Assembly: GCA_019309115.1 (NCBI GenBank)
Contig: JAFDGW010000011.1
Span: 1 to 57,568 of the forward strand
Origin: Deltaproteobacteria bacterium
Lineage (GTDB): Bacteria; Desulfobacterota; Syntrophobacteria; Syntrophobacterales; Thermodesulforhabdaceae
Length of the DNA stretch: 57,568 bases
Direction of reading: 5' to 3'
Position numbers and translations under genes: made by a program. A model generated the notes under the pieces. The model was not told where the DNA came from. It searched no databases and worked only from the letters and a program-made list of their open reading frames with translations. Of this stretch, positions 31,580 to 47,512 are shown piece after piece. Positions within the stretch are counted from its first letter, which is position 1. Each line of letters starts with the position of its first letter.

Positions 31580-31855
31580 CCCGGTCGTGCTAGACGGCGA
31601 GTTAGCGGTGCGCTGTACCCGAAATCCGCTTAGCGGGGTTGAATTCCCTCCCGAGGGCATTGGAGGTGACCTGCACTGCCGTCTGGCCTCCGGACGCACC
31701 GGACACCACGTAACAGACGGGTGTGAACCCCGTCAGGTCCGGAAGGAAGCAGCGGTAAGCACTGCGGTCTGTGTCGTGGTTCACTCTGGTGAGTGTTCGG
31801 AGGTTTTGGGCTTGCAGGCTCCCGTGTTCGACGGAGGGTGCACGGCCGGGCTTTT
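31580..31855 (+). ncRNA. ffs: Signal recognition particle RNA, long form with Alu domain
   Basis: The apical S-domain signature GTCAGGTCCGGAAGGAAGCAGC is at about 31732-31753, with the asymmetric loop that binds Ffh. The 5' part (CGTGCTAGACGGCGAG...AGCGGTGCGCTGTACCCG) and the 3' part pair over a long distance: CCCGGTCGTGC (31580-31590) with GCACGGCCGGG (31840-31850). At about 275 bases it is the long type with an Alu domain, like B. subtilis scRNA, rather than the 114-base 4.5S RNA of E. coli. CTTTTC follows as a short terminator. The RNA scaffolds Ffh-FtsY targeting of membrane proteins. Confidence 0.93.
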
Positions 31856-43878: not shown

Positions 43879-45357
43879 TTATTGAATAACTTTGAGATTA
43901 CGAGGAGGAGCTGGTTTTTCCGTTTCAGGGGGCGACGGTGCCGATGCCAATGCTTCCAGAGCACCTATGTCAACTCCATTCCCTTGGGGCACATTATTGC
44001 CGGAAATGTCCCGCGATTGACCTAAGTTAATTCCTTTGTCTATAGCCGGTGAACCCGTTTTTAACTGAAGATCTGAAACCTGAGACGGCGTGGTTCCCTG
44101 TAATGAAACAAAAAGCGGGTCGCCGTAAAGATCATCCCCTCCACCAGCAGCTTTTTTGTTCCATGTTGTTATGTCTTTACCCTTGGTTCCGCCCCAGTAG
44201 AAAATCGCATCTCCGGCCTTATGATACAAGAGGTTATGACCTATGCTAATGGGGTTGCCTGTGACCGGAGAATAAACTGCTATGGCCGGAACGCCAGGAC
44301 GGACAGCAACAAGTATGTTATTTACAACCGTAACATTCTGAACATGGTTTACATTATTTGCCACGTCACTTGCCAAATACAGTTCCGCTTTGAACGGGTG
44401 GCTCTTGCCTGGATCGATCATGTTTCCAACTAAAGTGTTATTGTAAACCTTGCTGTCGGAACTATCGTATATGCTTATCCCTGCGCCGTCATTGTCAAAG
44501 CAGATATTGTAATAAACTTCATTGTAGTCACACCATTGATCCAGCTGAATACCGTTACCATCCGGACCATTTGATTCTTTATTCTGAAACACTACATTGT
44601 AACGTATGACGTTGTGATCTCCAGAATCCTCCTGAGGGCTTCTCGAAAAAATATGTATTCCGCTCGTTCCAGAAACAGCGGCTCCATTCTGGTAGACGAC
44701 ATTTCCTTCGACGATATAATAGCTCCCCAAAATTTCAATGCCGTGGTGTCCGTTCCCGTATACCTCATTAGACGAAATGACGGTTTCTTTGCCTGACGCA
44801 CAATTTACAGAATCAACTGCTATTCCATGAGTTGAGTTGTTGTAAACGCGGTTATTCAGCACCATATTCGAATCGCCCGCCTGGTTTCCTATCCAGATTC
44901 CAAGGGCATTATCATGTATGTCGTTGTCTGCAATGGTAATGTGATTGCTTCCCTTTTGAATAATAATTCCCGCATAGGCGCTTCCGGTAACGGTAAGTCC
45001 CTCCACATGGACGTAAGCAGAATCCGTTATGACTATGGAGTTTTCTATCACAGGCGCCTCGCCAGAAACTGCCCTTACTATTATCGGAGCGGTTTTAGTT
45101 CCCCGCACAGCAATCACCAAAGACTCTTTAAAAGAGCCCAGAGATCCCTTGATCTCCAAAACATCGCCGGGTTGAATTTTCGACCAATCTATGCTGCTAA
45201 AGCCGACTATCACATTTGCGCCTTCCGTAGCTTTACCGACAGGATAAACGGTCCACACCCTTGCCTGTGCATCCGATACCGTCCACAGTATCAGGCCAGA
45301 ATATACCAAACCTGCAAACAGGCAGATCTTTATGATTTTTCTGATAGCATTCATCAT
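43879..45357 (-). CDS. Secreted right-handed parallel beta-helix protein
   Basis: 492 residues. Signal-like N-terminus (IIKICLFAGLVYSGLILWTV, then DAQA) is followed by parallel beta-helix repeats of the NosD/pectate-lyase-like fold, seen as repeated N-rich turns: HITIADNDIHDNALGIWIG, NMVLNNRVYNNSTHGIAVD, ETVISSNEVYGNGHHGIEI. The C-terminus is Pro-rich (APSPPETEKPAPP). Such domains bind or cleave polysaccharides, but catalytic residues cannot be named. ATG 45357 has AGAGG upstream. It is 19 bases after the lectin-like gene and shares its riboswitch-bearing transcript. Confidence 0.85.
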   Translation of the reverse strand: MMNAIRKIIKICLFAGLVYSGLILWTVSDAQARVWTVYPVGKATEGANVIVGFSSIDWSKIQPGDVLEIKGSLGSFKESLVIAVRGTKTAPIIVRAVSGEAPVIENSIVITDSAYVHVEGLTVTGSAYAGIIIQKGSNHITIADNDIHDNALGIWIGNQAGDSNMVLNNRVYNNSTHGIAVDSVNCASGKETVISSNEVYGNGHHGIEILGSYYIVEGNVVYQNGAAVSGTSGIHIFSRSPQEDSGDHNVIRYNVVFQNKESNGPDGNGIQLDQWCDYNEVYYNICFDNDGAGISIYDSSDSKVYNNTLVGNMIDPGKSHPFKAELYLASDVANNVNHVQNVTVVNNILVAVRPGVPAIAVYSPVTGNPISIGHNLLYHKAGDAIFYWGGTKGKDITTWNKKAAGGGDDLYGDPLFVSLQGTTPSQVSDLQLKTGSPAIDKGINLGQSRDISGNNVPQGNGVDIGALEALASAPSPPETEKPAPPRNLKVIQ

Positions 45358-46629: not shown

Positions 46630-46656
46630 CCTCCATTCCGAAATTTCGAGTGGAGG
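46630..46656 (-). promoter_or_regulatory. Hairpin that masks the ribosome-binding site of the lectin-like gene
   Basis: On the minus strand CCTCCA (46656-46651) can pair with TGGAGG (46635-46630), the Shine-Dalgarno sequence 8 bases upstream of ATG 46621, across a GAAATTTC-containing loop. This gives a plausible expression platform for translation control just downstream of the riboswitch. Which state (ligand bound or free) opens it cannot be told from sequence alone. Confidence 0.65.
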
Positions 46657-46683
46657 CGCAGCATGAACGGATATTACTTCCAT

Positions 46684-46786
46684 CCGCCCGGCAACCCTGC
46701 TACCATATTCCGGTCGCTCGACGACCAAAACTTAGGCCAGTAGCTTTGCGCCCCACTCTTTCAAGTGGTTTGCCCTTTTCAGGCGG
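46684..46786 (-). promoter_or_regulatory. Cyclic di-GMP-I (GEMM-I) riboswitch
   Basis: The minus strand reads AAGGGCAAACCACTTGAAAG then AGTGGGGCGCAAAGC, very close to the Vibrio Vc2 aptamer, including GAAA tetraloop and its receptor arm (GCGCAAAGC...GGCCTAAG). The 3' half has GGTAGCAGGGTTGCCG. The outer stem pairs CCGCC (46786-46782) with GGCGG (46688-46684). The base equivalent to Vc2 G20 is G, so c-di-GMP rather than cAMP-GMP is the expected ligand. It lies about 60 bases upstream of the lectin-like gene start, with an RBS-masking hairpin between. Confidence 0.93.
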
Positions 46787-46821
46787 CCCCATTTTGCAGA
46801 GGCTTTCGCTAGAAAAATTAA

Positions 46822-47071: not shown

Positions 47072-47087
47072 TGGCACATGCTTTGCT
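47072..47087 (+). promoter_or_regulatory. Sigma-54 promoter of the small unknown gene
   Basis: TGGCACATGCTTTGCT: GG (47073-47074) and GC (47085-47086) have the exact 12-base spacing and all core bases but one fit TGGCACG-N4-TTGCA. The start would be near 47098, about 55 bases before ATG 47153. Confidence 0.85.
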
Positions 47088-47152: not shown

Positions 47153-47512
47153 ATGAAAAAGGTATTATTGGAAGTTCCCTATGCAGAGCTTTCAATGTCA
47201 ATATCTTCCGAATCCATGCTCGAAAAAAGAATTTTAACACCTTTTGGGATCGTGGACGTAACCGTGCAACCTATTTCTCAAGCTAGCCATAATGAAGAAG
47301 GTGAACTTTACTTCAGAATTACTTTCGGCGGTGATATCGAAAGATGGGTTATAGACGGAGCCTTAACCGAAGAATTTAAAGATGCCGTGCTTCTTTTTCT
47401 TAAACATCTGGTCTTGGAAGATATAACCTGCAGCCTTCCAGCCTGCCGCGTTTTCAAGCTTTTGATTAAAGTCAAGGGAATCGAAACCGTTATTACTCTA
47501 CCAGCCTCGTAA
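47153..47512 (+). CDS. Unknown small protein under sigma-54 control
   Basis: 119 residues, mixed alpha/beta, no signal peptide, no membrane helix. Sequence features are a leading MKKVLLEVPYAELSM, a central FRITFGGDIERWVIDGALTEEFKDAVLLFL and two Cys near CSLPACRVF. I do not recognise a family. AAGGAG lies 9 bases before ATG 47153, inside a CCGCT/AGCGG hairpin (about 47127-47146) that might modulate translation. It converges on the activator gene, whose stop is 8 bases away. Confidence 0.65.
   Translation: MKKVLLEVPYAELSMSISSESMLEKRILTPFGIVDVTVQPISQASHNEEGELYFRITFGGDIERWVIDGALTEEFKDAVLLFLKHLVLEDITCSLPACRVFKLLIKVKGIETVITLPAS

Follow-up and report, generated by a model that had tools for sequence, protein, structure and literature searches.

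The stretch of DNA analysed here (the window, 57,568 nucleotides) carries on its minus strand a c-di-GMP-I (GEMM-I) riboswitch aptamer, a Shine-Dalgarno (SD) sequence that can be paired into a hairpin, and genes for a lectin-like protein and a right-handed beta-helix protein; a sigma-54 activator gene and a small divergent gene lie on the upstream side (Table 1). As originally predicted, the target is a lectin-like FnIII/calcium-repeat protein: it has one FnIII domain and two bacterial TSP3 (calcium-type) repeats, its N terminus resembles a signal peptide by eye, and an H-type lectin domain is predicted from a weak, partial match to PF09458 (residues 272-313; 26.4 bits against a cut-off of 24). 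The beta-helix start codon lies near 45357, about 20 nt past the lectin stop codon, and the beta-helix gene is probably the second gene of the lectin operon. Both genes stand side by side in four family genomes that have the riboswitch, the other three lectin proteins being 45-58% identical to that of the window. At the C terminus of the beta-helix protein (43879-43912, minus strand), the residues PAPPRNLKVIQ resemble the start of an FnIII domain, and this C terminus is possibly a shortened one. Elsewhere, a large bacterial SRP RNA (RF01854, 142 bits) is found at 31585-31845 on the plus strand.

Table 1. Features of the riboswitch locus, with positions in the window
Feature	Position	Strand	Remarks
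c-di-GMP-I (GEMM-I) aptamer	46784-46687	minus	RF01051, cmscan
P1 5' strand CCGCCTG	46786-46780	minus	7 pairs with 46690-46684
P1 3' strand CGGGCGG	46690-46684	minus	pairs with P1 5' strand
Aptamer core strand GAGTGGGGCGCA (P2 3' strand and junction)	46758-46747	minus	predicted alternative partner of anti-SD
Anti-SD, proposed aptamer-breaker strand TGCGCCTCCACTC	46660-46648	minus	
Predicted SD-masking hairpin, CCTCCA (46656-46651) / TGGAGG (46635-46630)	46656-46630	minus	
Shine-Dalgarno GGAGG	46634-46630	minus	8 nt upstream of ATG 46621
Secreted FnIII/TSP3/H-type lectin domain protein, 414 aa (predicted)	46621-45377	minus	PF00041, PF18884, PF09458
Right-handed beta-helix protein	45357-43879	minus	PF13229
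sigma-54 type -24/-12 element TGGCACAGATGGTGCT	46837-46822	minus	10/11 consensus positions
AATTAC/GTAATT half-site region	46975-46839	minus	candidate activator sites
Four AATTAC/GTAATT sites	46975-46966, 46961-46952, 46937-46928, 46848-46839	minus	
Divergent sigma-54 type element TGGCACATGCTTTGCT	47072-47087	plus	11/11, before 47153-47512 gene
Small conserved divergent gene	47153-47512	plus	kept in island of four family genomes
sigma-54 activator (AAA+, Fis-type HTH, weak receiver-like N terminus)	48867-47521	minus	PF00158, 6.8e-71

A cmscan search of the window matched RF01051 with 74.7 bits (gathering threshold 35; E = 7.2e-13), covering the full model (positions 1-87) with no broken or non-standard pairs, and a search of the whole genome found this copy only. 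The core is complete, P2 and P3 pair, and P1 can close the structure; model position 11 is G (46774) and position 46691 is C, which we take to be the equivalents of G20 and C92 in Vc2 numbering. The window aptamer is an ordinary member of the known c-di-GMP-I class. The original prediction, which gave no strand, had described a Vc2-like aptamer with G at the position discriminating c-di-GMP from cyclic AMP-GMP, and had proposed the GEMM-I covariance-model scan as a check; the scan returned the match, and the G is in place.

A sigma-54 element and a conserved regulatory island

The sigma-54 type element begins 53 nt upstream of the aptamer, with transcription expected to start near 46810. Scored over the 11 positions of the -24/-12 consensus TGGCAC-N5-TTGC(A/T), its single departure is at one -12 position, which has G instead of T. 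Matches with at most one mismatch are no commoner in the window than chance (4 against 2.1 expected), so the argument depends on where the element lies and on its recurrence. Matches to RF01051 were found in 57 of 98 related genomes, and 30 of the 123 leaders examined precede proteins with a common N-terminal FnIII domain. When an element was required to match at least 9 of 11 positions and to begin between 70 and 35 nt upstream of the aptamer, it was found in 18/30 FnIII-linked leaders against 5/92 other GEMM-I leaders; the latter comprise 5/45 of the other GGC-type leaders and none of 47 leaders with GCC for GGC. Fisher's test gives 1e-9 for FnIII-linked leaders against all others, a value that is no true probability because the genomes are related. 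The 18 FnIII-linked loci come from 18 genomes in about ten genera, where the rate in flanking sequence predicts about 0.6. A strict pattern scan across the phylum gave a weak signal: 15 matches, mostly not GEMM, compared with 8 at a control distance. We therefore limit the association to the sampled relatives. Among these, there is good statistical evidence that sigma-54 type elements accompany FnIII-linked leaders, and we infer that the promoter is used at the window locus; rpoN and GGDEF genes are present in the genome. A sigma-70-like site at 46979-46951 is a conceivable alternative promoter, but such matches occur about as often as expected by chance.

The original prediction, whose riboswitch features held up, missed both this promoter and the island in which it lies. 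The activator gene is syntenic in the four family genomes, and in all four the corresponding intergenic region has sigma-54 elements facing both ways. In the window the divergent element sits 66 nt before the start of the small gene, the product of which has no Pfam or NCBIfam match and is 27-39% identical to its island counterparts in the relatives. The N terminus of the activator matches PF00072 weakly, and the usual phospho-acceptor aspartate seems absent by eye. The motif AATTAC/GTAATT occurs 19 times in the four intergenic regions (1.7 expected; 0/500 shuffle sets), a count that is descriptive, the motif having been chosen after viewing the same sequences; it replaced the upstream inverted repeat AGACAC-N9-GTGTCT, which was rejected as an activator site since it is not conserved in the orthologues. 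We regard the activator as a candidate regulator of the island, probably acting at the AATTAC/GTAATT sites.

Pairing in the leader and predicted direction of the switch

The SD lies inside the TGGAGG arm of the hairpin, and the leader fold is more stable than that of dinucleotide shuffles (z = -4.8; none of 200 equally stable). Between the aptamer and the start codon we found no terminator-like stem with a T-run; the sole nearby match of this kind (46836-46822) precedes the aptamer and overlaps the sigma-54 element. Control by an intrinsic terminator was therefore rejected, and the leader does not group with transcription-terminating GEMM-I riboswitches. The computations support the translational control that had been proposed from the CCTCCA/TGGAGG pair, which is present and covers the SD, and our confidence in SD-masking translational control of the window gene, as modelled, is high. 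The hairpin cannot be the switch by itself, however, because it is predicted in the complete leader whether or not P1 is forced; as a complete mechanism it was rejected as insufficient. The P1 3' strand also has a possible alternative partner, the downstream AUCCGUUC arm.

A competition between the anti-SD and the aptamer core is the more likely switch. The anti-SD strand, UGCGCC-U-CCACUC, can form 12 pairs with one bulge with GAGUGGGGCGCA, a stretch comprising the 3' strand of P2 and the conserved junction. The energy of this duplex in the window is -24.8 kcal/mol, against -13.5 +/- 2.5 kcal/mol in 200 shuffles, and it lies at the shuffle extreme in 4/4 family orthologues; no other FnIII leader gave an extreme value against 200 shuffles, except for the borderline L087 (p 0.05). 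In the orthologue L031, one U-A pair of the duplex is changed to C-G, an independent compensatory change in a part of the anti-SD outside its pairing with the SD. Two further pairs are altered on both sides in L033, where the SD hairpin accounts for the changes equally well, so that the comparison comprises four orthologues and one clean compensatory change. A scan of genome contigs for additional orthologues gave one distant match.

Folding of partial transcripts points the same way. In transcripts ending between the anti-SD and the SD, the anti-SD is predicted to lie on the core with a probability of about 0.75-0.9 and P2 is broken, in 4/4 orthologues. Once the SD has emerged, the window leader and L031 shift to the SD hairpin, L033 is approximately even, and L032 remains on the core. 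With P1 and P2 forced, opening the SD of the window leader costs 14.2 kcal/mol instead of 9.0, and the cost rose by over 0.5 kcal/mol in 21/26 FnIII leaders. As constraining any aptamer removes alternatives and may bias the raw bound-minus-free comparison, aptamers were swapped between loci as a control: the window gave 5.1 kcal/mol with its native aptamer and 1.1 +/- 1.2 kcal/mol with swapped ones (0/14 reached the native value), and all loci together gave 3.12 native against 1.69 swapped (Wilcoxon p 0.007). For the full-length leader, the predicted minimum lies 5.5 kcal/mol below the fold with core/anti-SD pairing; given also that the hairpin is predicted regardless of P1, the ON state would need co-transcriptional folding or ribosome capture. 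We have moderate confidence, from models of four sequences, that the anti-SD cannot be paired with the core while the aptamer is folded around its ligand. Ligand should then favour SD masking, and the predicted OFF direction is likewise held with moderate confidence.

We propose, with a probability of roughly 0.6, that the leader is a c-di-GMP-I translational OFF switch on an operon transcribed by sigma-54 RNA polymerase and encoding the secreted FnIII/TSP3/H-lectin and beta-helix proteins. Transcription would need the sigma-54 polymerase, probably with the linked activator at the AATTAC/GTAATT sites. Without ligand, the newly made anti-SD would pair with the P2 3' strand and junction, breaking the aptamer and making the ribosome site more accessible. 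Binding of c-di-GMP would lock the aptamer and release the anti-SD to pair with the SD, and translation would drop.

The opposite direction, in which ligand exposes the SD and turns the lectin gene on, would suit the usual role of c-di-GMP in promoting surface proteins and attachment. It also has a precedent in Bc2 of Bacillus thuringiensis, a GEMM-I ON switch that, like the window aptamer, precedes a surface adhesion gene (cap, for a collagen adhesion protein) and acts through an antiterminator (PMC4933901), whereas the window leader has no terminator and is predicted to switch OFF. We consider an ON switch unlikely here: the leader models showed no pairing through which P1, once bound, would capture the anti-SD strand, and in the models the SD opens less readily, not more so, when P1 and P2 are in place. 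Still less likely is control of transcription or mRNA stability rather than of ribosome access, for example by Rho-dependent termination after loss of translation; Rho-type control carries no simple sequence signature, but the stretch between aptamer and gene lacks an intrinsic terminator and the anti-SD complements the SD exactly, orthologues included.

Other leaders appear to differ from the OFF switch proposed for the window. By eye, those outside the window's family seem to take another route, one that involves the P1 3' strand and a hairpin with the anti-SD in its loop. Three leaders of family f2 (L039, L044, and L057) have a different platform, with a TTTCCGAAAGGG aptamer start and GAAACGGGA repeats flanking the anti-SD, and precede a common protein family beginning near "...GRILVQARVGV".

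Ligand, related systems and meaning

We infer c-di-GMP as the ligand. Since G20 is a selectivity factor and no hard filter (PMC9262584), specificity for c-di-GMP, as judged from the sequence, is likely rather than proven. That property of G20, and the cyclic AMP-GMP-sensing GEMM-I RNAs common in Geobacter (PMC6456294), would allow the aptamer to sense cyclic AMP-GMP, or both dinucleotides, but this is improbable, as the discriminating position carries G and c-di-GMP-I is the best-matching model within the clan. The idea that the GCC-type leaders of relatives form a cyclic AMP-GMP class was dropped: the three loci tested (L037, L092, and L094) best match RF03167 (c-di-GMP-I-GGC) in Rfam, show a compensated pair change and retain the G of position 20. 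This group, which includes most of 44 further loci, precedes other, often secreted, proteins.

Both the linkage of GEMM to FnIII genes and translational OFF switching of the Vc2 type are already published. Vc2 of Vibrio cholerae, the type example of GEMM-I, is described as a translational OFF switch (PMC9262584); the window leader shares its aptamer fold, core letters, G20, dependence on P1, and predicted translational OFF control, and differs in its sigma-54 type promoter and target gene. A further proposed contrast, drawn from the window's platform only, is that the anti-SD would base-pair with the aptamer itself, on the 3' strand of P2 and the junction. In Geobacter, GEMM precedes the FnIII genes Gbem_1796/1798/1799 (PMC2996986) and KN400_1971 (PMC13194489); as far as the accessible parts of these descriptions go, the GEMM-I leader before a secreted FnIII protein is shared, the window adds the TSP3 and H-lectin domains and the linked activator, and neither a sigma-54 link nor a mechanism is given. 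The RpoN-dependent PEP-CTERM genes and their PrsR-type activators (PMC9850573, in its accessible parts) likewise combine sigma-54 control with secreted, aggregation-type proteins. The window activator resembles the PEP-CTERM response regulator TIGR02915, yet at 348.5 bits it falls below the cut-off of 502.6 and is not assigned to that family; compared with those systems as described there, the window locus includes a riboswitch, and its lectin shows no obvious PEP-CTERM tail. Our literature search, which covered few subscription papers and so leaves novelty unproven, found no paper describing a c-di-GMP riboswitch with a sigma-54/RpoN promoter. This arrangement appears to be new, as does the proposed expression platform, in which the anti-SD and the aptamer core pair.

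FnIII proteins of Syntrophobacterium fumaroxidans increase in late aggregates (PMC10787695), an observation consistent with a role in aggregation; riboswitches were not linked to them there. More broadly, we see about an even chance that the secreted FnIII/lectin proteins of this lineage form a two-key regulon, in which an enhancer-dependent sigma-54 promoter sets transcription and a c-di-GMP-I riboswitch close behind it vetoes translation, and that in the window's family a single strand serves as anti-SD and aptamer breaker within an island that has its own sigma-54 activator. The riboswitch itself belongs to a known class and is unremarkable within it, and to that extent the analysis mostly confirms the earlier finding. 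The predicted mutually exclusive pairing of core and anti-SD makes the OFF direction directly testable. The analysis adds a link, open to testing, that joins sigma-54/activator transcription to c-di-GMP riboswitches, two systems usually studied separately, and the link concerns a defined set of genes, those for FnIII surface proteins.
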